The position numbers were made by a program, and so were the translations under genes. Shown piece by piece: positions 1,097 to 22,486 of a DNA stretch of 51,036 nt. Location: positions 1 through 51,036 of IMG/VR virus record IMGVR_UViG_3300027969_000142. One strand, written 5' to 3'. The notes beneath the pieces were generated by a model that was not told the DNA's origin, did no database searches, and saw nothing but the letters and a program-made list of their open reading frames with translations. The stretch's first letter is position 1; the number at the start of each line of letters is the position of its first letter. This stretch comes from a virus.

Positions 1097-1100
1097 AAAA

Positions 1101-1108: not shown

Positions 1109-1137
1109 TATACGTGGTTAATTAGGAAACACGTATA
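1109..1137 (+). promoter_or_regulatory. Inverted repeat around the ribosome-binding site of the 1137 gene
   Basis: TATACGTG (1109-1116) and CACGTATA (1130-1137) are perfect 8-base complements. The 13-base loop contains the Shine-Dalgarno AGGA (1124-1127), and the right arm ends on the A of the start codon. A read-through mRNA could fold this hairpin; an mRNA starting at the late promoter just upstream would lack most of the left arm. Confidence 0.6.
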
Positions 1138-3297: not shown

Positions 3298-3341
3298 CTG
3301 CCATGACAAAAAAGCATTGTTAGTTGGCTGCGGATCTACTA

Positions 3342-4247: not shown

Positions 4248-5445
4248 CGCGATAGAAAATAAGTCTTGTCTTGCATGCGGCAGCAATAACCTAGCAGCAT
4301 CGTTAGATCTAGGCCATCATCCTTTAGCTAATAATTTGAAGAATGAACCTTCAATACAGAACATCTATCCGCTAGCAGTAAATTTGTGTACAGATTGCTA
4401 TCACCTGCAATTAACACACACTGTTGATCCTGCAATCATTTATTCAAATTATCTGTATGTGGCAGGTACAAGTAAAACTCTTGACCAATACAGCGATTGG
4501 TTTGCTGGCTATGTTTCTGAAACATTAGAACGTAAAACCTGTAATGTGCTAGACATCGGATGCAATGACGGAACTCAATTAAATCATTTTAAGAGTCGAG
4601 GATTTAATACCCATGGCATTGACCCTGCAGAAAATATCTATCCTACTAGTTCAAAGAATCATAATGTTATTTGTGATTTCTTTGGTCCCGGTATAGTAGA
4701 AAAAGTTCATCACAACTTCGATGCTATCACGGCACAGAATGTATTCGCACATAATCCAAACCCTTTAGAGTTTTTAGAAACAGTTAAAAAGTTAATGAGT
4801 GAACATACCCTAGTGTTTATTCAAACTAGCCAAGCAGACATGGTGTTGAACAATGAGTTTGATACCATCTATCACGAACATGTAAACTTCTTTAATGTTA
4901 ATAGTATGAACAAGATAGTTAACAGAGCAGGGTTAGAATTAATTGATGTGATTAAAACACCAATACACGGAAACAGTTACATATTTGTTATAGGTATAAA
5001 AGGCAAAGCATACAATATTAAAAATCTAATCAGCATGGAGTCAAAACTTACAGATATGCAGACCTACGTAAATTGGCAAATAACTGTAAAAGAAAATACA
5101 ACTGAATTAAAATCAGTTATAAAATCTTATATTGATCAAGGTTACAAAGTTATCGGGTACGGTGCTGCTGCCAAAGGTAATACCTTGCTTAACTACATTA
5201 ATCAACCGTTAGACTTAATTATTGATGACAGTCCTCTAAAGCAGAACATGTATGCTCCGGGTACAAATAGTCCTATTAAATCTATAGAATCTTTAAAAGA
5301 ATTTAGTAAAGAAGATAAAATTTTGTTCATACCACTAGCATGGAACTTTTTTACTGAAATACAACAACGCATCAAAAAAGTTCGTAACGAACCACAAGAT
5401 CGTTTCTTAAAGTATTTTCCAAAGGTAGAAATTAAAAATGTATAA
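4240..5445 (+). CDS. SAM-dependent C-methyltransferase, NDP-sugar type
   Basis: The 401-residue product has the three-part layout of sugar C-methyltransferases such as the TylC3/NovU type. An N-terminal zinc site is formed by C10, C13, C50 and C53. A central SAM fold follows with motif I VLDIGCNDG near residue 105. The C-terminal domain has VIGYGAAAKGNTLLNY. The YHEHVNFF element carries the histidine/glutamate pair typical of this family. The start at 4240 is chosen because the zinc-binding segment begins right after it. The expected reaction is transfer of methyl from SAM to a carbon of a keto-deoxysugar nucleotide. It overlaps both neighbours. Confidence 0.88.
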   Translation: MNNAIENKSCLACGSNNLAASLDLGHHPLANNLKNEPSIQNIYPLAVNLCTDCYHLQLTHTVDPAIIYSNYLYVAGTSKTLDQYSDWFAGYVSETLERKTCNVLDIGCNDGTQLNHFKSRGFNTHGIDPAENIYPTSSKNHNVICDFFGPGIVEKVHHNFDAITAQNVFAHNPNPLEFLETVKKLMSEHTLVFIQTSQADMVLNNEFDTIYHEHVNFFNVNSMNKIVNRAGLELIDVIKTPIHGNSYIFVIGIKGKAYNIKNLISMESKLTDMQTYVNWQITVKENTTELKSVIKSYIDQGYKVIGYGAAAKGNTLLNYINQPLDLIIDDSPLKQNMYAPGTNSPIKSIESLKEFSKEDKILFIPLAWNFFTEIQQRIKKVRNEPQDRFLKYFPKVEIKNV

Positions 5446-5788
5446 GTTTCCAGTAATTGAGTTGGTGGATCGTTATTGTATTGCCAAACTTAAATTTACC
5501 AAGCTAGGTGATAACGAAGAAGAACTAGATTTCTACACTGACCAACTGAAAGATTTAGATTTAAATCTAATCCAAGAAGATCTAGATAGACTCTATAATG
5601 TACATGCCAGAGTCTGGGAGCTTGAAGATGATTTCAAACGTTATACAGTGGAGCACAAGTATAGTTTAGAAGAAGTGGGTCGTCGAGCAATTCATGTGCG
5701 TAACATTTTAAATGAAAGATATATTCTAAAAAATAGAATGGCTGAATTATTAAACGACCCTGTAAGAGAAACTAAGAAGTACGGTTAA
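5438..5788 (+). CDS. Small helical protein of sugar/glycosyltransferase clusters (DUF6165-like pattern)
   Basis: This 116-residue all-helical protein carries DRYCIAKLKF near the start, then VHARVWELEDDFKRY and RRAIHVRNILNERYILKNRM. The layout (a DKxxIxxxK-like opening, an xLWxxED helix and a closing NxxRxxxK helix) resembles small proteins often encoded beside phage glycosyltransferases. That resemblance is from memory. No catalytic residues are evident. It overlaps the methyltransferase gene by 8 bases. Its TAA stop shares bases with the stop of the converging minus-strand gene. Confidence 0.6.
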   Translation: MYKFPVIELVDRYCIAKLKFTKLGDNEEELDFYTDQLKDLDLNLIQEDLDRLYNVHARVWELEDDFKRYTVEHKYSLEEVGRRAIHVRNILNERYILKNRMAELLNDPVRETKKYG

Positions 5789-6978
5789 TTTAGTGGATAG
5801 GTCCACTTGTTCTTACTGGCAAGTACGTTATAGTTGTAGACAACTATCTCTTTAGCAAACTGCAGAAACTCTTTTAACTCTTCAGATTGTAAGGTACACA
5901 ACTTTTTTACTTCTTCCATAATCATAAGAGTTCGTTTGACATCATCTTCTTCTTGATCGTAAGATTCATCAATCCATGGACTGAATGTTTTGTAACCCAA
6001 GTCATGCAGCTCTTCTAATGATCTAGGCATTGCAACTAGAATAAACGGGTGTTGATTTACAATAGCTTTAAATGTTTTCTCACTTAATATCCTACCAGCT
6101 CCTGTAAAGCCTTCATCACTGAAACCGTTGTATGCCGCAGTTTCTGTAACTAAACTGAAGTAACTATTTTCGTACATCGACAAGTGAACTTTGTTCACTT
6201 TAGCAGGATGCACCATATGGTGAGTCTCCGGAGTTGTATCAAGATATATAGGAGTTAATTTACATATATCATCTTTATAGGCACTAAAGAATATACGTAG
6301 TTCTTCTCTATCAATTAACTGATTATACCAGTGCTCTGGATCTTGCGTAGGATTATCCTGTAATCTTACATTGTAACTAACATAGCCACTACGTAATAAA
6401 TTATTGGTCTTTAAAAGAAATTGTATTGCAGTTCTATGTGGCCTCGGTAATCCGTTAAAACTTAAAAACTTTTTAGGATATTCTTTGTATTCTAAAGTAT
6501 TCTTAGCAGTAGTAAATGAATTTATTACTTCTCTAGCCTCTGCTTCAAACTCGATCATAAATTCTGCTTTAATTTGATCACAATTTTTTTCTTTACTTAC
6601 AAATAATATTTCTGCAAGGATGTCTGGGCTGTTTGATAATAACAGTATTTGCTCAGGAGGAATATTATATTTGATAACAACGCAGTTATATATGTCTTCA
6701 ATAATACGGTGGTAACCGTGTTGAGAGTTACAAAGGATAAGTGTTACTTCTTTATTTTTTATTTTTTCTATAATGTCCAATGGTAGTAAACTATCAAGGC
6801 AAAATTTAAAAGAATAAGAATTTGCAAATTCTATAAACCAATAATTTTTATCGTCATAATTTCTTATCCAACTATAACGGGGATGGTGAGATAAGAAGAC
6901 AGTCCAATCAACCGTTGGCGGTTGTTCAAGTGCAGCATGTCGGATGATCGGAACTGCTGTTTTATTTAAAATACTCAT
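5785..6978 (-). CDS. Glycosyltransferase-like protein of marine phages, 397 aa
   Basis: This is the last gene of the minus-strand operon. Recognisable segments are FLSFNGLPRPHRTAIQFLL near residue 170, YFSLVTETA near 280 and RILSEKTFKAIVNQHPFIL near 300. They are followed by a DLGYKTFSPWIDESYD block. The S-E-K-T-F-K and HPF elements recall the C-terminal nucleotide-sugar-binding region of exostosin/fucosyltransferase-like (GT-B) enzymes. Similar proteins are common in uncultured marine phages. Its start overlaps the previous stop as ATGA. The exact donor and acceptor are unknown. Confidence 0.6.
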   Translation of the reverse strand: MSILNKTAVPIIRHAALEQPPTVDWTVFLSHHPRYSWIRNYDDKNYWFIEFANSYSFKFCLDSLLPLDIIEKIKNKEVTLILCNSQHGYHRIIEDIYNCVVIKYNIPPEQILLLSNSPDILAEILFVSKEKNCDQIKAEFMIEFEAEAREVINSFTTAKNTLEYKEYPKKFLSFNGLPRPHRTAIQFLLKTNNLLRSGYVSYNVRLQDNPTQDPEHWYNQLIDREELRIFFSAYKDDICKLTPIYLDTTPETHHMVHPAKVNKVHLSMYENSYFSLVTETAAYNGFSDEGFTGAGRILSEKTFKAIVNQHPFILVAMPRSLEELHDLGYKTFSPWIDESYDQEEDDVKRTLMIMEEVKKLCTLQSEELKEFLQFAKEIVVYNYNVLASKNKWTYPLN

Positions 6979-8225
6979 TTTTTACTTTTGTTATTAATTT
7001 CGTGGGTAAAAATTTTATCTATACTGCTGACTTTTCCACAAGTATCTGCACAGTATGACAAGCGGCCATCTTCGACACGGTCGATGGCCCAGCTATCTGC
7101 AAACACACGATCTAAGTGTCCACCATCTAAAATTTCTTCAAGTGTATGTTTTTCTAAACTAAAATGATCCCATCCGTAATCATTCATGTGCTTATGTAGT
7201 TGGAGCGTTCTTGTATCAGTATACACTCCATTTAAATGTGTACCAATATAGCAGCACGGCATAACACGACCAAAGTTGTCTACAAAGATTTCTTTTCCGT
7301 TATCCCACCCTTTAGATTTACAAGAAATGCTACAACTATTATATTTAGAATTATCTTCTTTTAGAATACGATCTTCGTAGACAGTGTTAACCTGTTCTTG
7401 AAAGTAGTCACCTATATCTTTATTTTCTTTTAACCGTTTGTAGTCTTCAAATTTAAAAGTCTCGATATTCATTGGTTCTACACCTACAGGATTTTCTAAG
7501 TTTCTGTTCTTAGGATTAGTAGGAGCTTCGATGATGTACTCTAGTTCTCCATCTTTATTTAACACAGCCATGGATTGTAAATGTGTACCGTTATCAACAC
7601 CAAGTGACTTTTTAGGAACAAATTCATTGAACTTCATCTTTTTTGAAAGTTCTTGTGCTTCAAGTATTTGATGTTCGTTATGTTTGAAGATTAGGTAATC
7701 CCATATAGCAGTGCCGCCTGCGTCAATAAATGCTTGAGCATTTGCGATAACTGCATTCCATTTAACTTTTCTTCTATATAGATGATTGGTGTTTTCTAAT
7801 CCATCAATACTAAAAGTTACTGACCAATAGTTATGCATACTGCGTGGATATTTAGAAAATAATTTTCCAAGTTCTGCCCACCATTCTGGGTTACGCATGC
7901 CGCCATTAGTGTTTACTCTGACTGCGGTATTTCTAGATACCTCGTTAATGTACTTACAAATTTCTAACATGTCTTTAGCAGTACACGGATCTCCGTGTAC
8001 TCCACAGAATAAAATTAGATTACATTTTTTAATAATTTCGGGAGGAAAGTATTTTTTAAATTGTTCTAATGAAATTTGTCCTATTTCTAAATCTGGTCTA
8101 GTTAGCGGACTGTTGTTGTATGTTCTAACACACATCGGACATGCGGCATTACATGCATTAGTCAATTCAATGTGCATTTGTTTTAATTCGTGTGTATTCC
8201 AAAAATTAGACAATTTATTTTCCAA
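6975..8225 (-). CDS. Radical SAM protein with C-terminal SPASM/twitch-like cysteines
   Basis: The CxxxCxxC of radical SAM enzymes is C25-x3-C29-x2-C32 (CNAACPMC). The glycine motif is GVHGDP instead of the usual GGEP. Beyond residue 290 are further cysteines (NSCSISCKSKG, MPCCYIG and YCADTCGK), a pattern expected for one or two auxiliary iron-sulfur clusters of SPASM/twitch enzymes. Such enzymes modify peptides or small molecules by radical chemistry; no substrate is evident. The frame opens with TTG at 8223-8225, and another TTG follows at 8211-8213 with GGA in front, so the exact start is uncertain. It is the only member of the cluster without N-terminal auxiliary cysteines. Confidence 0.85.
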   Translation of the reverse strand: MENKLSNFWNTHELKQMHIELTNACNAACPMCVRTYNNSPLTRPDLEIGQISLEQFKKYFPPEIIKKCNLILFCGVHGDPCTAKDMLEICKYINEVSRNTAVRVNTNGGMRNPEWWAELGKLFSKYPRSMHNYWSVTFSIDGLENTNHLYRRKVKWNAVIANAQAFIDAGGTAIWDYLIFKHNEHQILEAQELSKKMKFNEFVPKKSLGVDNGTHLQSMAVLNKDGELEYIIEAPTNPKNRNLENPVGVEPMNIETFKFEDYKRLKENKDIGDYFQEQVNTVYEDRILKEDNSKYNSCSISCKSKGWDNGKEIFVDNFGRVMPCCYIGTHLNGVYTDTRTLQLHKHMNDYGWDHFSLEKHTLEEILDGGHLDRVFADSWAIDRVEDGRLSYCADTCGKVSSIDKIFTHEINNKSKK

Positions 8226-9417
8226 CTATAATTGCATATTCTTGGAAAATTTTATAGAAGTCTTGCTTTCTATAGTCGTCGTGTTTTTTAACCACGCTAA
8301 CAAAAAGATCCCATTCATGTTTGTTAAAATTTCCGTTCTTGATAAATCCAATAATTCCTTCTAAGTGGAACCATGCATCGGTATATGATTTTGAAATTGT
8401 ATCTAATTTTTCTAATACTTTTGCTTTGACCTCATCAGGCATAATACTAACATTATAATGTTTAGGCCCATGGACTAAATTTAAATAAAATCCAAATTCA
8501 TTCCAGTTGCTGTAGTACTCGTCGAGAACTTCTGGGAGATAAAATATATTTAGATTACTAAGTGTTATGCACCAGCTTAGTGATAAATTTTTGTGCTCAT
8601 GATTAAACAGAACGGCACTTCTCATATTTGCTTTAACTTCGTCCCACACCGCTGGATGTCGCATGTATTCAAATCGATCACCTATACCATCAATACTAAA
8701 ACTTAAATTTACAGATTTAAAATTTTTAAAAAGTTCTACATCCACTGGCCAAGTTGTACCATTGGTGTTATAGTGTAATTCGATATCATTTGCATACCCT
8801 TTATCAACACATATACGAAGTATTTCCCACATCTTTTTACTTAAGAATGGTTCACCACCATAAAAATCAAATTGTTTAATAGTGGATAAATTTTGTTTCA
8901 AATCTTCCCAGAACGGACTATCTTCATCATATGTTTGATGATACTGTTTCATATTAGCACTATAGTCTTTAAACGTGATAGTTTTATGATTTAGATCGTA
9001 GTCTTCTTTCATCCACATTGAACTAATAGTAGAATGACAAGTTCTACATTTGATATTACATGTGTTCCCCAAGTTTAATTCTAATTTTGCCAATCCTTGG
9101 TAAGGTTGCCTTAGGCCTTTGGATATTTCATGATTATATCTGTCGTTATCTCTGACACGTTTACTTTTTCGGCCGCCATCCTCTTCTTCCCAACATAATC
9201 TACAACCAATGTCTCTAATTCCATTGTTTAAGTTTTCTCTAATAGATAGAGCTTTAGGATTATTAAAATTTTCAAGAATACTAATTTCACCTAATCTATT
9301 CTTACCGCCGTAGTTATTCTGAAACATACAGCACATTTTAGTGCTACCGTCATTGTTTCCGCTCATGCCGTGAACTGCGTTTACACACCATGTATTTTTA
9401 TTTTTTTCATTTATCAT
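8215..9417 (-). CDS. Radical SAM protein with N-terminal twitch-like cysteine domain (A)
   Basis: The N-terminal region has C11, C29, C30, C72 and C75 (CRLCWEEEDGG), matching the auxiliary-cluster domain of twitch radical SAM proteins. The radical SAM motif is C120-x3-C124-x2-C127 (CNIKCRTC), followed by the GGEPFLSK motif. The C-terminal part, FSIDGIGDRFEYMRHPAVW, matches the substrate-side strands shared with its neighbours. Its 400 residues fit the family. It overlaps the previous gene by 11 bases, and the next by 11 if the first TTG there is used. Reaction and substrate are unknown. Confidence 0.85.
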   Translation of the reverse strand: MINEKNKNTWCVNAVHGMSGNNDGSTKMCCMFQNNYGGKNRLGEISILENFNNPKALSIRENLNNGIRDIGCRLCWEEEDGGRKSKRVRDNDRYNHEISKGLRQPYQGLAKLELNLGNTCNIKCRTCHSTISSMWMKEDYDLNHKTITFKDYSANMKQYHQTYDEDSPFWEDLKQNLSTIKQFDFYGGEPFLSKKMWEILRICVDKGYANDIELHYNTNGTTWPVDVELFKNFKSVNLSFSIDGIGDRFEYMRHPAVWDEVKANMRSAVLFNHEHKNLSLSWCITLSNLNIFYLPEVLDEYYSNWNEFGFYLNLVHGPKHYNVSIMPDEVKAKVLEKLDTISKSYTDAWFHLEGIIGFIKNGNFNKHEWDLFVSVVKKHDDYRKQDFYKIFQEYAIIVGK

Positions 9418-10762
9418 AATTTTCGTATGTTTGTTTACATAGCTGGTAAAACTCTTTGTACTCTGGAAATGTCTTTAACAAGTCTGTATTTAATCTCTTA
9501 TCATTTTCTGTAAAGAAGCTATAAAAGTCTCTACGGCCTGCACGAATCTTTTCCTCTGGAATAGTTTTGGCCTTCATGTAATCTGTTACACGTAGGAACT
9601 TTTCATATTCTAAATCACTTAACCATTCACTGTCTTTGATAAACTGCAATGTATCATCCATATGCTGAATGAAATCGTCTGTGAGAATATTAATCATCCA
9701 GTGGGGAGGTTCTTTTAAGTAAGGAGTATCAAACTTAATAGCATCGCGTCCAAATTCTTTTCTCCACTCGATAACTTTTTCTAGCAATGATTTGAAGTTG
9801 GTAACACACAACACATTAAACGTACACATGAAGTTCACACTAGTGCCTGTGGCGAGAACAGCTCGCATGTTACGTTCCCAATGAACGCAATCTAAACCTG
9901 TACGCATATACTCTGCTTGCTCACCCCAGCTATCTATACTGGTATAAAAACTAAAACTACGAATTTTCTTTTGTTTTAACAATGAACCTACACGCTCGAT
10001 TAAACTATCAACTTTAGCAAAGCTAACTCCAAGGTTACTGTTTAATGTAATTTCTAAATCAGGGGCCGGTTCTTTTTCCAATAAGTCAAAGAATTGCATC
10101 GCACCCGGATTCATCAACGGCTCACCTCCTGTGATACGAAGTGTATGTAAATCGTTCCGCAAACTTGGCCACCATTTCCAAAACGCTTCAATGTAAGGAT
10201 TCTCGTCCTTGGGACCGTAGTACGAGCCATTGCTCATAAACTCAATGCCGTATTGATTATAAGTTAGATCATAATTACCGTGTTTTTTAATTTCTTCAGT
10301 CCACATTGTGCTTGCCTGTGGGCAGCAATATCCGCATCTGTAATTGCATCCGTTGCCAAAGCTGACTTCTAAATACCGTGGATTAATGTGTCGATCCCAC
10401 GGAAGTTTAGCAACTTCATCAATAATTGGCACACTATAATCACTGCTACTATGAATCATGCGATCGCTGATATGCTCTCCTGGCAAATCTTCAATGTTCC
10501 AACAATAGTAACATTCGTCAGGGCGGCCGCCTTCTAACATGGTCTTACGTTGTTGTTTTTTCCAACTAGTGTTATGTAATGCACTTGGATCAACTGCAAT
10601 TTCTTCTAAACTAATATGATGCGGTCTAGGGTGATAACAACTATGATTATCTCCTGTGTGCAGATACAATGTTTGATGTAGCCATTTCATGGTGCAGAAT
10701 CCTGGACCTGTGGTGTTTAGTTTGTCTCGTACTGATTTAATATATTGTAGTTTATGATCCAT
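9407..10762 (-). CDS. Radical SAM protein with N-terminal twitch-like cysteine domain (B)
   Basis: N-terminal cysteines C23, C42, C84 and C87 (ECYYCWNIED) precede the radical SAM motif C139-x3-C143-x2-C146 (CNYRCGYC) and the GGEPLMNPG glycine motif. It is a clear paralogue of the next gene upstream: both carry SCYHPR, ALHNT, RPDEC and CWxIED at matching positions, and both end with FYxFFTExDxRxNTD. AAGGA precedes the ATG. The 451-residue length is similar to that of its paralogue. It probably forms two iron-sulfur clusters; the substrate is unknown. Confidence 0.87.
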   Translation of the reverse strand: MDHKLQYIKSVRDKLNTTGPGFCTMKWLHQTLYLHTGDNHSCYHPRPHHISLEEIAVDPSALHNTSWKKQQRKTMLEGGRPDECYYCWNIEDLPGEHISDRMIHSSSDYSVPIIDEVAKLPWDRHINPRYLEVSFGNGCNYRCGYCCPQASTMWTEEIKKHGNYDLTYNQYGIEFMSNGSYYGPKDENPYIEAFWKWWPSLRNDLHTLRITGGEPLMNPGAMQFFDLLEKEPAPDLEITLNSNLGVSFAKVDSLIERVGSLLKQKKIRSFSFYTSIDSWGEQAEYMRTGLDCVHWERNMRAVLATGTSVNFMCTFNVLCVTNFKSLLEKVIEWRKEFGRDAIKFDTPYLKEPPHWMINILTDDFIQHMDDTLQFIKDSEWLSDLEYEKFLRVTDYMKAKTIPEEKIRAGRRDFYSFFTENDKRLNTDLLKTFPEYKEFYQLCKQTYENYDK

Positions 10763-12179
10763 GTGTGTCCTTGCAGTTGTTCCAAAAGTTTGTTAGTTCA
10801 GGAAATGTATTTACAAAATTTGTATTTCTACGACGATCTTGTTCTGTAAAAAACATATAAAAATTTTTCATTGCTTTGTTTTTATCAAAATTAGATTCCT
10901 GTTTGATCCAATCAATTAATCGTTGAACCTTGCTAACTTCGAAATCTTTAAATCCCTTATGGTGATTAAATAATCCTTCAGTGTTTTCTAACATGTATGT
11001 CTTAGCCGTTTCTAGTTCTATAATCATTTCGGGCAATAATTTAGAATTTAAAAAATCAGGGTCTTGTAACTGGGGGATATCAAACCAAATTAATTGACGG
11101 CCTTTACTGAATTGGTTTCTTAATTTGTGAATATTTTTAATATATTCTACAAACCCCGAGTAACTCAAGACATTAAATGTAATAATGAATGTTAAGCTAT
11201 GTTTATCCCCGTTGGCCAAAAAGTCTGTTATGTTCTGGTACAGTAGATCGAAGTCCATACCAGGACGTATATATTCAGCTTGTTTGCCCCAAGAGTCTAA
11301 ACTACAAAACAACATAAAGTGGTCAATTGCTGATTTTTCAGTGATTTTCTTCAATGATATCATGAACTTATTCCACTGATTTCCTGGTGGACAGCAATTT
11401 GATGTTATAGACAGGTTTAAGGCAGGATGTGGGTGCTCGTGTACATAATCAAACATTTTAAAGGTGTTTTTATCCATTAACGGTTCGCCACCAGTCATAC
11501 GGAATGTTTGCAGCTTTGGGTATACTACTGGCATCCAATCCCAAAATGCTTTTAGGTACGGATTGTCTGGTCCGTTATCGATATTAAGTTTCTTAACCCA
11601 AGTAAGGTCATTATGCCACCGATCTGCCAATATAATGGCTCCATGTTGTTCGATGTCTTGTTGCCACGCTGTGCTTAAATGTGGACTACAATAACTGCAT
11701 TTAAAATTGCAGGCCTGATTAAAATTTACTTCTACATATCGAGGTATTGCATTACCTTCAAACCCTAAAGCTCTAGCTTCGTCTATCAACCCTTCTTCAT
11801 AGACATCTTTACTACGATAAGCACGATCACTTAATTGATTTCCACTGTCTTCTATCTGCCAACAAAAATTGCACTCGTCTGGTCTCTGGCCGTCTAACAT
11901 TAATTTGCGTTGTTCTTTTTTGTGTTTAGTATTATGTAATGCACTTACATCTATTTGAATTTCTTCTAACGGAACTTTATGACTACGGGGATGATAACAA
12001 CTATGTGTTTGCCCGGTCGGAATATGTATGCTCACATTAAACCATTTTGCTAGACAAAAACTAGGACTGACTTCATTTAATTCTTCAAACACTTTTCCAG
12101 CATCGTGAAAATACTTAGACTGGTATCGTCCATTAATTTTAACCAACTCGTTGCCTTTTATGTTTTCATTTAGAGGCAT
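10752..12179 (-). CDS. Radical SAM protein with N-terminal twitch-like cysteine domain (C)
   Basis: The start at 12179 (MPLNENIKG) is chosen because AAGGA lies 8 bases before it; the in-frame ATG at 12209 is deeper in the upstream gene and lacks a site. Counting from this start, auxiliary cysteines are C42, C61, C103 and C106, and the radical SAM motif is C157-x3-C161-x2-C164 (CNFKCSYC). The glycine motif is TGGEPLMDK. The neighbour at 9407 is its paralogue across the whole length, which points to tandem duplication. Its 475 residues fit the family. Confidence 0.87.
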   Translation of the reverse strand: MPLNENIKGNELVKINGRYQSKYFHDAGKVFEELNEVSPSFCLAKWFNVSIHIPTGQTHSCYHPRSHKVPLEEIQIDVSALHNTKHKKEQRKLMLDGQRPDECNFCWQIEDSGNQLSDRAYRSKDVYEEGLIDEARALGFEGNAIPRYVEVNFNQACNFKCSYCSPHLSTAWQQDIEQHGAIILADRWHNDLTWVKKLNIDNGPDNPYLKAFWDWMPVVYPKLQTFRMTGGEPLMDKNTFKMFDYVHEHPHPALNLSITSNCCPPGNQWNKFMISLKKITEKSAIDHFMLFCSLDSWGKQAEYIRPGMDFDLLYQNITDFLANGDKHSLTFIITFNVLSYSGFVEYIKNIHKLRNQFSKGRQLIWFDIPQLQDPDFLNSKLLPEMIIELETAKTYMLENTEGLFNHHKGFKDFEVSKVQRLIDWIKQESNFDKNKAMKNFYMFFTEQDRRRNTNFVNTFPELTNFWNNCKDTHGS

Positions 12180-14793
12180 CAAATTTTTCCTTAATCCAAT
12201 CAAAGTCATTGATTCGTCTTAACTCTTCTAGATTGTTTTTATTGTCTAACCCATATTGGCGGCCGGCCTTTGCTCCTGCTATAGCGTATTCACCAAACGG
12301 CGCTGCTTGTCCTATAGTACACCACACATCTAAACGTTGTTGTGTTTCTTCTTCGAACTGTCTTTCAATAGTGCGGCTAGCCAATTTACAACATTCTCTA
12401 AATGCTGATCGCCATGTAGTGAATTCATCGGTGTTAAACGAATTAATGTTAGATACTTTATCCACAGCTTTAAACTTTTTAGATATACTAGTTGTCATGT
12501 CAGATGTATTAACATCCATATTCAATGTTAAATGACGGGGTAATAGTTTAACTCCGCCATTGCCATATTCTAAATTGTTGATGGGATTCCGACTTCTCCA
12601 TACATGCACACAGTCTATATCATAACTTGACATAACTAAATCAAAATTAAAATCATCTTCAATGACCGCATCGCCATCGACTACCCATATCATATCAGTG
12701 TCACACATCTTTGCTGCATTAATATGAGCGTTGTGAATTCCTTTTATACCATGCACTCTTTTTGCTCTAGGACATATATCAAGCAATCTAAGATAATTTT
12801 CTTCAGCGTTGGCTTCATTATAAGATATAAACACCACATCATATATATGATGCTTAGATACTATAACATCGTGTTCTTTTTTCTCAATTAAAAACCTGTG
12901 ATTAAACTCTCTCTGGCCGATAAGTTTGTCTTTAGAAAATAAAATAACACCATTATTGTAAATTTCTGAGTCGTTAAACATGTGTTTAAATGTATGGTTT
13001 TCTTTACGATCGTGATCGTACTTTCCATCGTTGGGATCAAAGTATAAATTAAAAACTGTATTATCAGTAACTTCTATTTCAGGCCATATTCCCCAAAACA
13101 TAGGTTGTGGTTCATTGTTGGCAATTTCTACATATTCATCGTAGGATGATAAAACGTATTTGTTGTACCTATACCGACTAACGACTAATGGATGTTCTTT
13201 TTTATCAATTAGGTATCTACGATTAAATTCTCGTTCTGAAATTATTTTTGTTGTAGAAAATAAAACTAGTCCACACAAATATGTTTCTTTGTCATTACAC
13301 AAGTTTTTAAACACATGGTTTTCTTTACGATCGTGGTCATATTTTCCATCATTAGGATCAAAGTATAAGTCAAAAACAGTTTTATCGATTACATTTATTT
13401 CCGGCCATATTCCCCAAAACATTAGTTGTGGTTCATTGTTGGCAATTTCTAAGTATGCATGGTAAGATGATAAAATGTATGTGTTGTATCTATAGCGACT
13501 AACAACCAAATCATGTTCTTTTTTATCAATTAGGTATCTACGATTAAATTCTCTTTCAGAAATAATTTTTTCTTTTGAAAACAAAACTAGTCCACACAAA
13601 TATGTTTCTTTGTCATTACACAAATTTTTAAACGCATGATTTTCTCTACGATCGTGATCGTACTTTCCATCGTTGGGATCAAAGTATAAATTAAAAACTG
13701 TATTATCAGTAACTTCTATTTCAGGCCATATTCCCCAAAACATAGGTTGAGATTCGTTTTCAAAAATCTGTAGGTATTCATCATAGGTTGTTAAATTATA
13801 TCTAGGGTAAACATAACGGCTAACAATCAAATCATGTTCTTTTTTATCAATTAGATATCTACGATTAAATTCTCGTTCTGAAATTATTTTTGTTGTAGAA
13901 AATAAAACTAGTCCACTTAGATATGATTCTTTATCATTACACAAATTTTTAAACACATGATTTTCTGATCTATCATAATCAAAAGTTGGGTTATTAGGTT
14001 TAAAATAAAGATCAAAAATAGATATATCTATTATTTCTATTCCAGACCAAACGCACCAAAACATGGGCTGCTGGCTAGTATTAATAATTTCTAAATATTC
14101 AGCGTAATTATTAATAGTATAAACAGGATATTCAAATTTACAAACTACTATATCATGTTCTTTTTTGTCAACGACATATTGTCTCATAAATTCTTTTTTG
14201 GACAACGGTTTAAATTTACTGCAAAGAATTATACCAGTTAGGTAAAGCTCTTCGCCGTTGCACAAGTTTTTAAAAACATGATTTTCTCTACGATCATAAC
14301 TGTTATGATGACTAAAATATAAATTAAAAATTTCGTTGTTTAAAATCTTGATTCCAGAAGACACTATCCAAAACATGTCATCTGTAATTGTTTGGTATTC
14401 CTCAAACGTCGAAGGATAATATTTTTTATATTGCTTTGGTGTACTAGCAACTGTATCAATTTCTTTTTTTTCTATAAAAAATCTGTTAGAGAATTCTCTT
14501 TGAGAAACTGTTAATGATTTAGGAAATAAACACACTCCGTCATAGTGTTCACCGTTTTTAAAAACATGAACATACATGTCGTCCCACTTGGTAACATTGT
14601 AATCTAGCAAATTAAATGACGTTAACTCTACATCGTCCCAGATAACCCAGAACATTTTTGTAAAAGATTTAGATTGTATTTCTTTGTATGATTTTATGTT
14701 TGTGAGTTGTTGAGCAAGAGGATACCTAGACTTTATTGTTTTCCAGTCCTTGTCATTTCCGTTGCTTGCCGAAACATAAAAAATATCATACAT
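12166..14793 (-). CDS. Tandem degenerate glycosyltransferase-repeat protein with C-terminal GT-A-like domain
   Basis: The 875-residue protein has two parts. Residues about 46 to 645 are six tandem units, starting at residues 46, 139, 243, 350, 457 and 564. Each opens with (P/D/L/K)MFW and contains an HxFKN strand, a GxxLFS strand and a REFxxRxxIxKKEH helix; units 3 to 5 are exactly 107 residues. Residues about 648 to 870 form a GT-A-like domain (YDVVFISYNE, then WVVDGDA near residue 703, then YGNGGVKLLP) homologous to the product of the gene at 14786. The repeats align with the core of that domain, but the DGDA metal motif has become WPEI, WDDV or similar. Only the C-terminal copy looks catalytic. 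Confidence 0.8.
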   Translation of the reverse strand: MYDIFYVSASNGNDKDWKTIKSRYPLAQQLTNIKSYKEIQSKSFTKMFWVIWDDVELTSFNLLDYNVTKWDDMYVHVFKNGEHYDGVCLFPKSLTVSQREFSNRFFIEKKEIDTVASTPKQYKKYYPSTFEEYQTITDDMFWIVSSGIKILNNEIFNLYFSHHNSYDRRENHVFKNLCNGEELYLTGIILCSKFKPLSKKEFMRQYVVDKKEHDIVVCKFEYPVYTINNYAEYLEIINTSQQPMFWCVWSGIEIIDISIFDLYFKPNNPTFDYDRSENHVFKNLCNDKESYLSGLVLFSTTKIISEREFNRRYLIDKKEHDLIVSRYVYPRYNLTTYDEYLQIFENESQPMFWGIWPEIEVTDNTVFNLYFDPNDGKYDHDRRENHAFKNLCNDKETYLCGLVLFSKEKIISEREFNRRYLIDKKEHDLVVSRYRYNTYILSSYHAYLEIANNEPQLMFWGIWPEINVIDKTVFDLYFDPNDGKYDHDRKENHVFKNLCNDKETYLCGLVLFSTTKIISEREFNRRYLIDKKEHPLVVSRYRYNKYVLSSYDEYVEIANNEPQPMFWGIWPEIEVTDNTVFNLYFDPNDGKYDHDRKENHTFKHMFNDSEIYNNGVILFSKDKLIGQREFNHRFLIEKKEHDVIVSKHHIYDVVFISYNEANAEENYLRLLDICPRAKRVHGIKGIHNAHINAAKMCDTDMIWVVDGDAVIEDDFNFDLVMSSYDIDCVHVWRSRNPINNLEYGNGGVKLLPRHLTLNMDVNTSDMTTSISKKFKAVDKVSNINSFNTDEFTTWRSAFRECCKLASRTIERQFEEETQQRLDVWCTIGQAAPFGEYAIAGAKAGRQYGLDNKNNLEELRRINDFDWIKEKFDASK
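13105..14067 (-). repeat. Three exact-length 321-bp tandem units in the glycosyltransferase-repeat gene
   Basis: Unit boundaries on the minus strand fall at 14067, 13746, 13425 and 13104, giving three units of 321 bases (107 codons). Shorter, more divergent units flank them (14658-14380, 279 bases; 14379-14068, 312 bases; and one starting at 13104 that merges into the catalytic domain). Nucleotide identity is high and patchy, consistent with recent duplication plus recombination between units. Confidence 0.9.
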
Positions 14794-15703
14794 TCGCAGG
14801 TACCGGCATCTTAAAATAAGTGTCGTTTAAACTCATGGTTTCATTATACAAATCTAAAGTAAATTTACTTTGCTGTGCGTCAAGGAACGGCCAATCTAAT
14901 CCTAGACCCATTTTTATTTTTTCGCCTAAATTTTTAATTTCTTCTACTAGACCAGTGCCGCTAACATCTTCATATGGTTTGCCGTATTGAAAATAAATGT
15001 CTCTAAGGATTTCAAAATCTCGAACATCGACATAATTCCATTGTGTGCAGTTGGCCATCCATGTTCCTAATCTAGCACCGTACACAGCATAAATTCCGTT
15101 TTCTTCGTGAGCACCAACTGTTGACCACATGCGCAGTCTATGGATATTGTGCCACCATATGCGTTCTTTGATTTCCATAGGTGGAACTTTGACACCGTCA
15201 AGTAAGGTCATTTTAACACCTTCACGAAATCCTGCTCGCCATGCCTGAAATGGTGATCCCGTAATAACACTTTCACTGAACGCCAATGGAAAATTTCTAT
15301 ATCCATCTTCCCAACAAAAATCTACCTGGCCACGATCGCTGTTGGAATTTTCATGTGTCTTCATGTTGAGAACAAAATCTTTACGCCAGATTTTCAATCC
15401 ACCATTACCGTAACGTAATCCGTTGATTGCATTTCTACCGCACCAACCGTAGACCTGTATCTTAGGATCACTCATATCAAGGTCGATGTTAAAAAATCTA
15501 GGATCTACAATGTTGTCAGCATCAACAGTAATAAACCAATCTGTTTCACTGGCCTCTGCTGCGGCTTTATGGGCGTGGTCTGATCCTTTGACTCCGTGAA
15601 TACGTTTAGCCCAAGGAACTTTGTTGCATAGATCCGCATAATGCACATCAGCATTAGGTTCGTCATAGCTAAGGAAAATCACATCAAATTCTATAACTTT
15701 CAT
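14786..15703 (-). CDS. GT-A-like glycosyltransferase, 305 aa
   Basis: The N-terminus FDVIFLSYDEPNAD is a Rossmann-like first strand and is followed by WFITVDADN, which places a DxD metal-binding motif at residues 61-63. RYGNGGLKIW and GFREGVK follow. All these elements match the C-terminal domain of the neighbouring repeat protein, so the two genes are paralogues. No membrane segment or signal peptide is present. It overlaps both neighbours (4 and 8 bases). It probably transfers a sugar from a nucleotide donor; the specificity is unknown. Confidence 0.75.
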   Translation of the reverse strand: MKVIEFDVIFLSYDEPNADVHYADLCNKVPWAKRIHGVKGSDHAHKAAAEASETDWFITVDADNIVDPRFFNIDLDMSDPKIQVYGWCGRNAINGLRYGNGGLKIWRKDFVLNMKTHENSNSDRGQVDFCWEDGYRNFPLAFSESVITGSPFQAWRAGFREGVKMTLLDGVKVPPMEIKERIWWHNIHRLRMWSTVGAHEENGIYAVYGARLGTWMANCTQWNYVDVRDFEILRDIYFQYGKPYEDVSGTGLVEEIKNLGEKIKMGLGLDWPFLDAQQSKFTLDLYNETMSLNDTYFKMPVPANV

Positions 15704-16317
15704 TTATATTCTATCAAATAGTTTTTAAACAATCTACGTGTATACACGCTGAATCTATCATATTCTATGTTTTTAATTGTTACATTATGACCTACTAATT
15801 CATTTAGTTTAACAGAAAACATCTCAAAAATCAAGTTAGGATCGTTGTAATCGGTGATTAAAAAATCCATGTCGGTAGTACCGTCCCAAATAAAGTTTCT
15901 TGCGTTGACACTGCCTTTGTGTTTTTTGGTGCCGCCATATTCAGCAGACAGCTGAACTTTCAAACATTTGCTTTTTGAATTATATGTTAGATGTATGTCA
16001 GATTTGAGTTCTTCCGAATATTTGATGTCGAGAATTCTGTGCAACATATCATCTAATTTATTCAGTGTCTTTTTTTCAGCTATCTCTAACTGTCCTGACT
16101 CTGCATTTATTTGACAATTGTGTATCTGTGTTTCAGCTGTGATTATAGATTCAGCAATTTCTTGTGGTATCTTCACTACATTCTTTTGATCTGTAAAAGC
16201 ATGATCTGGTCCTACACTGATCACTTGACCTGTGCTTGGATCAAACACCGCTACGTACTGTGTGATCGGTTGTTTGTATTCTCTTAGCCAGTTGTCAAAA
16301 TCTTCTATAGTTTCCAT
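15700..16317 (-). CDS. Unknown protein within the glycosyltransferase operon, 205 aa
   Basis: The start at 16317 (METIEDFDNWL) is chosen because GGAGA lies 8 bases before it; an in-frame ATG at 16344 is deeper in the upstream gene. The first 60 residues (QYVAVFDPSTGQVISVGP) look like a beta hairpin domain. The middle is helical with EKKTLNKLDDMLHRILDI, and the end is NARNFIWDGTTDMDFLITDYNDPN. I do not recognise the family. Overlapping both flanking glycosyltransferase genes, it may encode an accessory or virion protein. Confidence 0.65.
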   Translation of the reverse strand: METIEDFDNWLREYKQPITQYVAVFDPSTGQVISVGPDHAFTDQKNVVKIPQEIAESIITAETQIHNCQINAESGQLEIAEKKTLNKLDDMLHRILDIKYSEELKSDIHLTYNSKSKCLKVQLSAEYGGTKKHKGSVNARNFIWDGTTDMDFLITDYNDPNLIFEMFSVKLNELVGHNVTIKNIEYDRFSVYTRRLFKNYLIEYK

Positions 16318-17144
16318 GCTTTGGTCTCCAAGATATGTATGCACTCATCTGTGATTTTATTTTTCTCCACATAATGCACAATATCATTTTGTTGAAAATT
16401 TCCTATCTTTAATTTAGCATCTGCATTGAGATAAAATCCCACATGGTCACTCCAGGTGTCGGCGGGCCAAGGCCAGTTTTGCAACATTGGTTTCATATGA
16501 ACTACCCGAGGAAAAGGTAGATCGTACGCAATGTCATCAGTGATATCTAGTATTTTAGCAGCCAGGGCAAACGCCTCATCTGTGCCAATCACCTTGGGTC
16601 TGTGTTCACTTAAAAACTGATTAGTGAATTCACAGGGATTTTTTAAAATCTGTCGTCCTAATTCGAAAAATTCTCGGCATAGCACAGATTCTTTAGAGAA
16701 AAAAGTCCACATGGAGTATAAATCTGGTAGGCAATTTCTGTCAAAAGTTTTTCTATATGTGCGATCTGTGATTGATTCACCTCTGTAGGTGTAGACCTGA
16801 TTGGCCACATATAACTCGCTGTTGGCAATAAAATAATCAATCCAGTGACTGTAATCTCGTAGGAATAACATGTCAGCATCAAGACAAACTGTGTGATCAA
16901 ACGGAGACAGTTGGTCCATCCACGATCTACCATCCCAATATTTCTCTTGGTCCCACTCAATTACAGTGTCAAACACCCACGGACTTAACAGTGTCGCAAG
17001 TGATTCTTTGTTGTCAATTATCAGTGCCACCCTGTCATAACCTGGTTTTTGTGTGGTTTTTATACTCAGAGCCAGAGCATAGGCGCACTTGAGATAATCA
17101 ATGTCATCATTGTGTGATACAAATAACAGATATCCAAAATTCAT
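16305..17144 (-). CDS. GT8-like glycosyltransferase, 279 aa
   Basis: The first strand FGYLLFVSHND, the helix ALALSIKTTQKPGYDRVALII and the motif VCLDADML (D89-x-D91) match the start of GT-A glycosyltransferases, closest in layout to GT8-type glycogenin/galactosyl enzymes. GTDEAFALAAKIL near residue 190 matches the conserved D-E pair that follows in that fold, and VVHMKP supplies a late histidine/lysine. GGAG precedes the ATG by 6 bases, and the start overlaps the preceding stop as ATGA. The product is cytoplasmic; donor and acceptor are unknown. Confidence 0.75.
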   Translation of the reverse strand: MNFGYLLFVSHNDDIDYLKCAYALALSIKTTQKPGYDRVALIIDNKESLATLLSPWVFDTVIEWDQEKYWDGRSWMDQLSPFDHTVCLDADMLFLRDYSHWIDYFIANSELYVANQVYTYRGESITDRTYRKTFDRNCLPDLYSMWTFFSKESVLCREFFELGRQILKNPCEFTNQFLSEHRPKVIGTDEAFALAAKILDITDDIAYDLPFPRVVHMKPMLQNWPWPADTWSDHVGFYLNADAKLKIGNFQQNDIVHYVEKNKITDECIHILETKAWKL

Positions 17145-18001
17145 ATCAACTCCATTAACTGTTGTTGATGTCTCAATATACTTTGTTTATTCATCACATG
17201 TATATCAACTCCAGTCACTGATGCTGCACAATATGTGGCATCCAATCGATGATCAATCAAGAATATTAATTTGTCCTTGTCGACAGCTGTGAGTATATCT
17301 TTGTCCATCACTGATAACACAGGTGGCAGTGTCGGTGTGTGCATGTTCTCAAATCCATCTAGCATGTGTTTGGCAACACTGAACGCAATGTCATTTCTAT
17401 ACTGTCTGTGATCGAATTGAAAGACATCAGCATAGTGCTTGTAATTTTCTTTGATTAAATTCACAGTGTCAAAAAACAGTTTGGATTGTGGATTTTTTGT
17501 GAACATCACCGTGGTTGCCCAATACATTTTACAACTGGTTTCACAAACATATCTATCAAGGTATCCTAATCTATCTTTGCTGTAGATATCGTTGATTGAA
17601 TCACCTATCATTACGTCAGCTTCCACATTCCAATATTTGTTTAGATTGTCACTGAATATTAAAAAATCACTGTCTATCAGCAGTGTTCTATCATAAGGCG
17701 TGAGGTCCCATACAGAGTGTCTGTTGGTATTACAAAATGGTATTTTTTTATTGATTACACCGTCGTGTAATCCACGTTGATTATCCGTAACAGGTTTGTC
17801 TACAATTATAACATGTTCAAATACTGTTTCAACCTGCTGCCATGTGCGTGATTCGATCAACCATTCCTTGGTGCTGAGATCTGTGACCAATGACACTGGT
17901 ACATGAAGATGTTTTTTTGCAAGCCCGCCACTGATCACTGCTAATAATCCGTAATCTACTTCACGATTATTGTGCGCGAAAATTAAAATACCATTGGTCA
18001 T
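17141..18001 (-). CDS. GT-A-like glycosyltransferase, 286 aa
   Basis: The N-terminus ILIFAHNNREVDYGLLAVISGGLAKK and the metal motif LLIDSDFLIF (D110-x-D112) define a GT-A-type fold, similar in order to the neighbour at 16305 but clearly divergent. A later segment, YRNDIAFSVAKHMLDGF, carries the conserved acidic residue of GT8-like enzymes. IHVMNK near the end supplies the late histidine. The gene overlaps the next by an ATGA. It follows the short first gene of the operon and probably shares its late promoter. Confidence 0.72.
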   Translation of the reverse strand: MTNGILIFAHNNREVDYGLLAVISGGLAKKHLHVPVSLVTDLSTKEWLIESRTWQQVETVFEHVIIVDKPVTDNQRGLHDGVINKKIPFCNTNRHSVWDLTPYDRTLLIDSDFLIFSDNLNKYWNVEADVMIGDSINDIYSKDRLGYLDRYVCETSCKMYWATTVMFTKNPQSKLFFDTVNLIKENYKHYADVFQFDHRQYRNDIAFSVAKHMLDGFENMHTPTLPPVLSVMDKDILTAVDKDKLIFLIDHRLDATYCAASVTGVDIHVMNKQSILRHQQQLMELI

Positions 18002-18348
18002 TGTGAAATAAGTTTTTCTACAGATCTAGATTTCTTGATCTTATCAAATTCTTGAAAGTATTCATTAGTGACTTCGAAATATCTACTGAAGATTTCATCA
18101 CGAAACGTTTCTAGATTCTCTATCAATATGGGATTTTCGTTGCTGTCCAACAGCACAGTTCCAGAAACTCTTCCTTTGGTACACAACATTTCAACAAATG
18201 TCAACAGGGTTCTATCAATAGTAAATAGACCCCCAGAAAAACCATACATTAGTTTGGCAGCTGTGCGTTCTTTGAGAATTTTTTTATGTATTGAAAAAGT
18301 TTGCTGATAATTAGCAAAATCCAATACAGCTTTCAGCTGTGCATTCAT
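17998..18348 (-). CDS. Conserved phage hypothetical protein, 116 aa; first gene of the operon
   Basis: This is a mostly helical protein (QLKAVLDFANYQQTFSIHKKILKERT) with a central beta hairpin GGLFTIDRTLLTFVEML. The pattern is familiar from T4-like cyanophages, where it has no assigned function. It has the best-marked start in the minus-strand run: AAGGAG at 18354-18359 and a TATAAATA late promoter about 30 bases upstream. As the first gene of the run of eleven it may set expression of the downstream glycosyltransferase and radical SAM genes. Confidence 0.78.
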   Translation of the reverse strand: MNAQLKAVLDFANYQQTFSIHKKILKERTAAKLMYGFSGGLFTIDRTLLTFVEMLCTKGRVSGTVLLDSNENPILIENLETFRDEIFSRYFEVTNEYFQEFDKIKKSRSVEKLISQ

Positions 18349-18351
18349 GAG

Positions 18352-18388
18352 TTCTCCTTGATAAACTGCGTAGTTTATTTATAGAGAA
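18352..18388 (-). promoter_or_regulatory. Two-part inverted repeat enclosing late promoter and touching the Shine-Dalgarno
   Basis: On the minus strand an inner stem ATAAACT/AGTTTAT (18378-18372 with 18367-18361) is enclosed by TTCTC/GAGAA (18388-18384 with 18356-18352). The outer stem would pair the last three bases of the AAGGAG ribosome-binding site. The late promoter lies in the left arm, so a late transcript would lack that arm. Confidence 0.55.
18376..18383 (-). promoter_or_regulatory. T4-like late promoter (TATAAATA)
   Basis: An exact TATAAATA on the minus strand lies in the 58-base gap between 18348 and 18407. The expected start point is near 18370, giving a leader of about 20 bases that contains AAGGAG. 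It is the only clear promoter before the eleven-gene minus-strand run. Confidence 0.75.
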
Positions 18389-18406
18389 TCGTGTGGTGTG
18401 GAAAAA

Positions 18407-19378
18407 TTACGAGCCAGTGACAGCGCCGATTGCAATTGTGGGTTGAACCACTGTGAATGCTGCGCTGCTGGGAACCATGATACCTGTGGCAAATAGTGTA
18501 GAAACACTCACAGAGAGAGTACCATCTATCACATCACCCGGCGGTGGGTTGGGGTCAAATCCTGCTCCCGAGTCTGTGTATCCGTCTGTGAACAATACTC
18601 GTATTTCACCGCTAGCCGCTGTGCCTCCGCTGTTCGACGTTACATCAACACATCTGGTTTGTAGGCGGTAGTTGTTGGATCCATAAGGACTGCTGGCTGT
18701 AGCTGTGTAAAATGTCTGGAAAGTGCTAGTGGTTTTATACCAATTGGTGCCATCGTTAGGGGTGGTTCCTGTGCTAGGCACAGCGCCACCAAAGTTCTGT
18801 GTGCCTGCGGCGCTGAGAAGAGTTGTCCAACTGGTGTTTTGAGCAGTGCCTGCTCCGCCAGTTCGGTTAGCACTGATCCTAATTTTACCGCCGCTGTTGA
18901 ACCAATATCTAGCATCATTGGCATTACTCCAATAAAACTGTATGACACATTCGCATTGACTAACCCATGATGTGGTTCTGTTTGATGTGGTCACCGCAGT
19001 GGTAGCTGATTCACTGCCAGCCACTGTGAATCTGTTGGTGGTGATATTGTCTGCCCAATCATCATATTGTTTCTGTGGTACATCAAGGCTTCCGGTATCA
19101 GGAGTAAATGAACCGGTATATCGGATAGTGTTGCCTTCTGAAACCACAGCTGTAGTCGGATTAGATCCGTTGATGTGCTTGTAGGCATTGATGATGTCAA
19201 ATCGTAGATTTGCCCACTCATTAATAGTGACTTTGGTGCCTTCTGCCACAGCCGTAGATACTATTCTAGCCTGTTGACCATAGCCAGAATTTCCACTGCC
19301 GTTGCCTAACACAGCAATAACTTTGTTTCTAATTGAATTGTAGTCTGCTTGGACTATTATACTGTTAACAGCTGGCAT
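18407..19378 (-). CDS. Virion structural protein (paralogue 1), 323 aa
   Basis: It shares with the product of the next gene upstream an N-terminal helix, the motif GYGQ, an LRFDIIN segment and a central beta domain. The beta domain contains YWFNSGGKIRIS and SPYGSNNYRL. The C-terminal end is a beta region, GDVIDGTLSVSVS. This layout is familiar from structural proteins of T4-like marine phages; the position in the virion is not known. It is Thr/Ser/Gly-rich, as expected for a beta-rich tail appendage. No Shine-Dalgarno is visible; a TTAAATA element ends 6 bases before the ATG. Confidence 0.72.
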   Translation of the reverse strand: MPAVNSIIVQADYNSIRNKVIAVLGNGSGNSGYGQQARIVSTAVAEGTKVTINEWANLRFDIINAYKHINGSNPTTAVVSEGNTIRYTGSFTPDTGSLDVPQKQYDDWADNITTNRFTVAGSESATTAVTTSNRTTSWVSQCECVIQFYWSNANDARYWFNSGGKIRISANRTGGAGTAQNTSWTTLLSAAGTQNFGGAVPSTGTTPNDGTNWYKTTSTFQTFYTATASSPYGSNNYRLQTRCVDVTSNSGGTAASGEIRVLFTDGYTDSGAGFDPNPPPGDVIDGTLSVSVSTLFATGIMVPSSAAFTVVQPTIAIGAVTGS

Positions 19379-22115: not shown

Positions 22116-22123
22116 TATTTATT
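22116..22123 (-). promoter_or_regulatory. Possible late promoter variant (AATAAATA)
   Basis: AATAAATA on the minus strand precedes the fibre gene starting at 22093. It contains the TAA stop (22119-22121) of the upstream gene. Confidence 0.4.
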
Positions 22124-22484
22124 GCTGTGATACTACACGAGCTGCTGCGGCTTCACGCTGCTGTTCGAGTTGTATGTATTCTGTATCTGATAGACTTGTG
22201 GCGATATTCAGTGCTTTCTGCCTTAAATGTCTAAGAATCTTCCAATCTGTGTTATTTAAAAATTCGCGTTCTTGTGCGTTAGCCAATTCCGTTGTCTTTT
22301 GTGCTGCAACATTCTCTGCTACTGGTTTGACAGTGCTATCAGCAACATCAAAATAATGTGTTTGTGCTCTAAGTTGCTCGGCCTGGGGATCTGTGATTTC
22401 CTGCAGCCTTACAGTGCTAGGAACACTAGGTAGATAATTTAATATCGCTACTACGGTGTTATTTTCTATACAGACATAATGCAT
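22119..22484 (-). CDS. Putative tail fibre assembly chaperone, 121 aa
   Basis: The start at 22484 (MHYVCIENNTVV) is preferred over an ATG at 22496 inside the upstream gene. The C-terminal half, EREFLNNTDWKILRHLRQKALNIATSLSDTEYIQLEQQREAA, matches the layout of phage tail-fibre assembly proteins. That layout is an aromatic TDW element followed by a helical LT-EEY-xL-xxR region. It sits between two fibre genes, where such chaperones are usual. It would help fold or trimerise one of the adjacent fibres. The identification rests on pattern and position. Confidence 0.6.
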   Translation of the reverse strand: MHYVCIENNTVVAILNYLPSVPSTVRLQEITDPQAEQLRAQTHYFDVADSTVKPVAENVAAQKTTELANAQEREFLNNTDWKILRHLRQKALNIATSLSDTEYIQLEQQREAAAARVVSQQ

Positions 22485-22486
22485 GA

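Follow-up and report, generated by a model that had tools for sequence, protein, structure and literature searches.

A conserved fibre-linked operon of glycosyltransferase-like and radical SAM genes in aquatic jumbo phages

The sequence analyzed here (the window) is a 51,036-base IMG/VR virus record, in which eleven minus-strand open reading frames (ORFs), mostly glycosyltransferase-like (GT-like) and radical SAM genes, lie behind two fibre-like virion genes. We named them g1 (18348) to g11 (5785), in transcription order. The first-pass annotation, made from the sequence alone, had described the region 5785-18383 as a single late operon, and all eleven ORFs were found there with overlapping ends. 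When the longest start codons are used, the successive junctions from g1 to g11 overlap by 4, 4, 40, 4, 8, 44, 11, 11, 11, and 4 bases. With the internal ATG codons of g4 (16317) and g7 (12179), the overlaps of 40 and 44 become 13 and 14, in agreement with the 4 to 14 bases originally reported. The 8215/8225 junction overlaps by 11 bases from the first TTG and leaves a 1-base gap from the TTG at 8213, again as described. Counts of sigma-70 promoters and intrinsic terminators within the operon were not clearly above those in shuffled sequence.

We evaluated the conservation of this arrangement in scans that covered the best 80 loci each, many of the contigs being fragmentary. From scans anchored on g7 and on g9 we obtained 34 and 18 viral loci, respectively, nearly all with the order fibB-fibA-g1-g2-g3-g4-g5-g6-g7-g8. 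Because this first sample was anchored on radical SAM genes, a second one was anchored on g5; its window-branch set also contains loci found via the radical SAM genes, and two other branches were sampled by their own g5 alone. In the window branch, radical SAM genes lay near g5 in 67/67 independent g5 clusters with enough sequence, directly downstream and on the same strand in 60/67 and as an inverted block in a few. The two further branches, whose g5 is ~46% identical to that of the window (about 46-50% among all three), gave 44/44 and 26/26 clusters. Altogether, a radical SAM gene was present in the locus in 137/137 independent g5 clusters with enough downstream sequence, and the order fibre-g1-g2-g3-(g4)-g5-(g6)-radical SAM was nearly always kept across branches. 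In one locus (L037), a single reading frame comprises a GT core and the N-terminal part of g7, with the remaining radical SAM domain in a second frame, which is suggestive of a GT-radical SAM fusion rather than a proven protein. Independent occurrence of the genes in relatives would have spoken against a single system; instead, the fixed order, the co-occurrence, and the fused frame strongly support it.

The conserved core is, however, smaller than the eleven-gene operon first proposed: all eleven genes are present in the window, but only g1, g2, g3, (g4), and g5 together with at least one, and up to several, radical SAM genes are shared. The g6 gene is often inserted between g5 and g7. In near relatives, distant homologues or other genes take the place of g9, g10, and g11; the homologues that replace g9 are 33-35% identical to it. 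Because g9-g11 form an exchangeable cassette, the eleven genes are best described as core plus cargo. A cassette of g11 and the convergent genes recurs in a different g5 branch (L205; g11 43%, x116 91%, C-methyltransferase 74%, and epimerase 63% identical), indicating that the sugar genes move along with the operon. Cargo genes of other relatives encode a carbamoyltransferase, a CmcI-like O-methyltransferase, GDSL/SGNH-like proteins, a B12-type radical SAM protein, or DUF6492 proteins. In six loci (L104, L110, L112, L142, L143, and L147) the radical SAM block is inverted and convergent to the GT block; thus, the two blocks can be transcribed separately. The combination had been thought unusual for a phage. 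It is in fact common in aquatic jumbo phages, and radical SAM cassettes beside fibre-linked GT genes are also described in pelagimyophages (PMC7029224).

Table 1. Genes and regulatory features at the locus (aa, amino acids)
Feature	Position	Strand	Length	Description
g1	17998-18348	-	116 aa	Always the first gene of the operon; no assigned family function
g2	17141-18001	-	286 aa	Putative glycosyltransferase, weakly GT8-like; DxD (residues 110-112) invariant
g3	16305-17144	-	279 aa	Putatively GT8-like; DxD (residues 89-91) invariant; phrog_1903 match
g4	15700-16344	-	214 aa (205 from ATG 16317)	Beta-rich protein
g5	14786-15703	-	305 aa	GT2-like glycosyltransferase; invariant DxD; homologous to g6 core
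g6	12166-14793	-	875 aa	C-terminal GT-A/GT2 domain (~650-875, DGD 706-708) after six ~107-aa units
g7	10752-12209	-	485 aa (475 from ATG 12179)	N-terminal twitch radical SAM enzyme, NF033640
g8	9407-10762	-	451 aa	N-terminal twitch radical SAM enzyme, NF033640
g9	8215-9417	-	400 aa	N-terminal twitch radical SAM enzyme, NF033640; exchangeable part begins here
g10	6975-8225	-	416 aa	Radical SAM protein; C-terminal SPASM-like cysteine pattern
g11	5785-6978	-	397 aa	Probable glycosyltransferase, by pattern only; frequent cargo in related loci
x116	5438-5788	+		Convergent; 4-base overlap with g11; part of the g11 cassette
Sugar C-methyltransferase-type protein	4174-5445	+		Methyltransf_13/23/14
NAD-dependent epimerase/dehydratase	3324-4247	+		Nucleotide-sugar type
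Two fibre-like virion genes	18407-19378, 19395-20291	-		Directly upstream of g1
T4-type late promoter TATAAATA	18376-18383	-		Positional conservation in relatives
Inverted repeat around promoter	18349-18390	-		3' arm 18349-18357 (GGAG 18354-18357) pairs with 18383-18390

The link to fibre genes was equally constant. By branch, 62/63, 56/57, and 46/47 distinct g1 genes are immediately preceded by a fibre-like gene, which amounts to 164/167 in all. The two upstream proteins of the window had no match in Pfam or PHROG. They match gp360 of Pseudomonas phage PA5oct (profile E value of 1e-38), a product marked ESI-MS/MS (electrospray ionization tandem mass spectrometry) in the PA5oct record and encoded in a collinear block that also holds a marked tail-fibre protein and other mass spectrometry-marked structural genes. 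The association with fibres put forward in the first-pass annotation thus holds by position, while we infer that fibres are the modified target.

The baseplate protein of the window (43732-47154) shows 32-36% identity to those of jumbo myoviruses such as Sinorhizobium phage Phosso, Salicola SCTP-2, Agrobacterium Atu_ph07, and Klebsiella/Salmonella jumbo phages. A 4662-aa structural protein is encoded at 29741-43729 on the minus strand, and the matching position in PA5oct holds an 11.6-kb mass spectrometry-marked gene. A 125-aa protein (22119-22496, minus strand) that matches the tail-fibre-assembly families phrog_188 and phrog_8716 lies between two large fibre-type genes.

Next, we considered the promoter upstream of g1. 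The late-type motif TATAAATA begins 35 bases and ends 27 bases upstream of the g1 ATG. It was found 3 times in the window as compared to 5.3 expected by chance, and its count was therefore ruled out as proof of a late promoter. For this reason, we turned to positional conservation: TAAATA stands ~33 bases upstream of g1 in 53/62 distinct relatives versus 17/1240 random 40-base windows. The T4-like late promoter, which had been called clear, is therefore not significant by count, but its conserved position marks it as real and presumably active.

The TAAATA motif sits inside an inverted repeat whose 3' arm carries the ribosome-binding site of g1. In predicted folds of read-through RNA, this site was paired in 47/53 cases (mean of -15.9 kcal/mol, mean z of -4.3), as compared to 1/53 (mean of -0.7 kcal/mol) in promoter-started RNA, whose start was assumed, by analogy with T4, to lie about five bases past the motif. 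Covariation was assessed by permuting arms between phages. Own arms reached -809 kcal/mol versus -520 (standard deviation of 21) for swapped arms, and 0/5000 permutations were as good, indicating that pairing is kept while the sequence drifts. The hairpin of the window itself is weaker than those of its relatives but nonetheless real (-10.2 kcal/mol, z of -3.3, 1/200 shuffles as good; truncated RNA, -1.6). Two features of the T4 gene e-type switch were thus found: the promoter is placed such that RNA started from it, with the start set as above, would lose the 5' arm, and the hairpin pairs the Shine-Dalgarno site with compensating changes. RNA reading through from the fibre genes, like any earlier transcript, would leave g1 untranslated. 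Other TAAATA-bearing genes tested lacked the promoter-in-hairpin arrangement, with one exception outside the operon (L157:2832-3557, 241 aa, z of -8.8).

This timing was not universal. In a marine branch of the L222 type (L217, L220, L222, and L307-L385), g1 is mostly preceded by TTGACA and TATAAT or TATACT, that is, sigma-70-type elements, and in L220 and L222 a hairpin hiding the ribosome-binding site surrounds the -10 element, which represents the same logic with another promoter type. Because of these promoters, late timing appears to be a property of some branches and not of the operon. Late expression, as originally suggested, is thus supported for the present phage by the conserved promoter within its hairpin, but not for the marine branch.

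A separate leader with a late-type motif, CATAAATATATACGTGGTTAATTAGGAAACACGTAT (window 1080-1140, plus strand), lies upstream of the gene at 1137-1421 and is nearly unchanged before the same gene in many relatives; its conservation exceeds the needs of a promoter.

Turning to the enzymes, at least five GT-like proteins had been counted, and the strength of this assignment differed among them. It was firmest for g5 and g6. The g5 protein aligned with the C-terminal 230 residues of g6 with an hhalign probability of 100% (E value of 2e-90), and both qualify as GT2-type enzymes of the GT-A fold: g5 by homology to the g6 core and a DxD motif with invariant D61 and D63, and g6 by its fold and a DGD motif with invariant D706 and D708. 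In Foldseek, the g6 model matched RmlT, SunS, and GalNAc-T (E values of 7e-5 to 1e-3) with low TM-scores; as a medium-confidence prediction (62.6 for the full protein), it would support the fold but not an acceptor. The assignment was weaker for g2, with an invariant DxD and a weak glycogenin (GT8) match (E value of 0.019), and for g3, with an invariant DxD and no meaningful similarity match. The g11 protein, whose homologues occur in 84 loci, had no family or PDB match and is probably a GT, as judged from its sequence pattern. No operon protein contained a 19-residue segment with a mean Kyte-Doolittle value above 1.5; this lack of hydrophobic stretches fits soluble enzymes.

The g6 protein carries six ~107-residue units N-terminal to its catalytic domain, of which three to four form a tandem array of 321-base repeats with 77-84% matches. 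Among relatives, its length varies in ~106-residue steps from ~230 (the bare core) to 1084 residues, corresponding to 0-8 units. In L006-L008, it has one unit more than in the window, with neighbouring genes 96-100% identical to those of the window. A profile of 129 units matched the GT core profile with 97.9% probability (E value of 5e-13, 79 columns), and DxD was kept in none of the units that could be scored (0/129, with 19 not scorable). Because the full model is only of medium confidence, the homology of units and core rests on this profile comparison. Thus, the units look like degenerate, catalytically dead copies of the g6 GT core; a role in sugar binding or spacing would be a guess.

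The four radical SAM proteins reported in the first-pass annotation all contain the CxxxCxxC motif. We assigned proteins to the twitch family NF033640 when they had this motif and scored >170 bits over the full model. The g7, g8, and g9 proteins matched it near full length with 313, 296, and 307 bits, respectively, while g10 gave a partial match of 45 bits. The latter passes the Pfam Radical_SAM cut-off (32.5 versus 29.5 bits) and has a C-terminal SPASM-like cysteine pattern, as read from the alignment; by its sequence, it is a radical SAM protein of another subfamily. The best conserved of the four is g8 (68-96% identity in aligned relatives), and its bacterial homologues in Bdellovibrio-like genomes are 36-45% identical. 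Six such genomes (L058, L060, L061, L067, L069, and L070) contain 8-26 NF033640-type hits of any strength each, frequently in tandem arrays, with some hits over the cut-off in every genome and many others below it. An identity as anti-phage viperins was rejected, since the matches to pVip (21-31 bits) reflect only the shared superfamily core. One 281,658-base contig (L225) carries a second cluster at 233500-253000, far from its fibre operon, in which several radical SAM genes accompany an SGNH-like protein and dehydrogenases of the sugar type.

Searches of Pfam, PHROG, and NCBIfam gave no usable match for g1, g4, or g11. The g4 structure model (pLDDT of 81) had no significant PDB match, and its viral matches were unnamed proteins; a weak structural match to a tail-fibre-assembly protein (E value of 0.13) is a lead only. 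In some divergent relatives, the g4 slot holds a different short ORF. No cultured phage carrying the operon was found: g1, g3, g5, g6, g7, and g11 had no match in 50,697 phage records, and g9 had only distant ones in Vibrio phages K566 and K567, where the operon arrangement was not seen. A host could not be assigned; a 75% identical contig (L057) of a metagenome-assembled genome labelled Flavobacteriales probably represents phage DNA that was mis-binned.

We propose, with roughly even confidence, that the operon encodes a fibre-linked glycoconjugate pathway in which soluble enzymes glycosylate and radically tailor the neighbouring fibres. The GT-A enzymes g2, g3, g5, g6, and probably g11 would assemble a short chain of sugars in the cytoplasm on an acceptor, for which the fibre-like virion proteins encoded directly upstream are the most likely candidates. 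Subsequently, g7, g8, g9, and g10 would perform radical chemistry on the sugar or on the acceptor peptide, while the convergent epimerase and C-methyltransferase may supply or alter an unusual nucleotide sugar. In the present phage, the pathway would be restricted to late infection by the hairpin, which is predicted to hide the g1 ribosome-binding site in read-through RNA and to be broken by starts at the promoter, and the gate could be passed from g1 to g2-g11 by translational coupling through the overlapping frames. More tentatively, and with doubt prevailing, this may be a widespread phage pathway for tail fibres: several radical SAM enzymes would restructure a glycan made by the phage, or a glycosylated peptide, and the inactive GT-like modules of g6, variable in number, would serve as a sugar-binding array that sets chain engagement.

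Fibre modification is favoured by the co-occurrence of radical SAM genes with g5, the fibre-like gene before nearly every g1 and its mass spectrometry-marked family in PA5oct, the fused frame of L037, the promoter within its covarying hairpin, the lack of hydrophobic stretches, and the cargo of relatives, which is of the glycan-tailoring type. Several observations weigh against it. The collinear fibre block of PA5oct contains no GT or radical SAM gene in that stretch; thus, the fibre family does not need the operon genes, and the operon was gained or lost behind a similar fibre block. Since large phages have hypervariable fibre regions in which cargo accumulates, adjacency by itself can be misleading. 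Moreover, the radical SAM quartet g7-g10 also occurs without g1-g6 (L157, L198, L206, and L049), and the sigma-70-type promoters of the marine branch do not favour use during assembly there.

The main alternative is that the operon remodels the surface glycan (O-antigen or capsule) of the infected host, for example, to exclude rival phages or to keep released virions from being trapped on debris. The fibre-adjacent GT8 genes of pelagimyophages have been interpreted in this way (PMC7029224), and an epimerase, C-methyltransferase, carbamoyltransferase, and O-methyltransferase are typical of surface polysaccharide clusters. The marine promoters fit earlier expression, and a bacterial homologue of the twitch enzymes (L069) lies near apparent ABC-export and sugar-pathway genes, as judged by eye. 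However, the block showed no sign of a flippase, polymerase, priming transferase, or membrane-anchored GT, and its proteins lack membrane segments; the late gate of the freshwater branches would make superinfection exclusion less useful; and a near-universal linkage to fibre genes would not be expected. We therefore regard host-surface remodelling as a serious but rather unlikely explanation.

Peptide maturation is the best-known role of twitch and SPASM radical SAM enzymes. The proteins might thus produce or alter a small molecule or a ribosomal peptide, RiPP-like (ribosomally synthesized and post-translationally modified peptide) or signalling, unrelated to virion or surface. Weak similarities to peptide maturases and the presence of the peptide S-glycosyltransferases SunS and ThuS among the Foldseek neighbours of g6 are consistent with such a product, but neither a precursor-like small gene nor an exporter was found in the block, and g1 and g4 are conserved and folded-looking, without a leader-core pattern. 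A peptide or signalling product is thus improbable. We consider it a little less probable still that the locus is hypervariable cargo only, with unrelated morons gathered behind the fibre genes. Fibre regions are plastic (PMC7029224), and relatives differ by exchange of g9-g11 and of the plus-strand sugar genes, so that this description holds for the g9-g11 cassette; for the core it is contradicted by the complete co-occurrence with g5, by the fixed g1-g5 order followed by radical SAM genes across such divergent branches, and by a hairpin-gated promoter conserved at g1 but not at most other late-type genes tested. Finally, glycosylation of phage DNA, with the radical SAM enzymes making a hypermodified base, is very improbable: although phage GTs that modify DNA are established (PMC12619734), the late gate, the fibre linkage, GT2/GT8-like families instead of the T4 alpha/beta-gt, and the lack of base-modification genes in the block all speak against it.

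The literature searched contained no description of this conserved operon, which hundreds of uncultured jumbo phages from freshwater and marine habitats carry tied to their fibre genes. Phage fibres decide host range, and if fibre modification is correct, receptor-binding parts would bear chemistry that cannot be read from the fibre gene alone. The operon is also a source of many unstudied radical SAM enzymes, whose substrates are likely sugars or glycopeptides, and it clearly exemplifies a T4-style hairpin gate retained in phages other than the T-even group.

Among known systems, the hypervariable host recognition cluster of pelagimyophages is similar in that GT8-type GTs and added radical SAM cassettes lie at tail-fibre genes (PMC7029224). 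In contrast to that large non-syntenic island with scattered GTs, the operon keeps one fixed order in several branches of jumbo phages, and its conserved first gene and gated promoter are features of its own. The NF033640 proteins of Bdellovibrio-like bacteria resemble g8 but form chromosomal arrays without g1-g6 in the loci inspected. Mycobacteriophages glycosylate their virions with phage-encoded GTs (Freeman et al. 2023, cited in PMC12619734), and the operon probably works alike; as cited there, that system has no radical SAM enzymes, and its virion glycans are proven, while the operon is known from genes alone. Last, the T4 genes e, soc, 49, and I-TevI have a late promoter in the 5' arm or loop of a hairpin, such that the Shine-Dalgarno sequence is hidden in read-through RNA and free in promoter-started RNA (PMC3014915, PMC2988022). 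The same arrangement is found upstream of g1, where, in contrast to T4, the predicted hairpin would gate a multi-gene glycan and radical SAM operon, with its pairing kept despite sequence drift.

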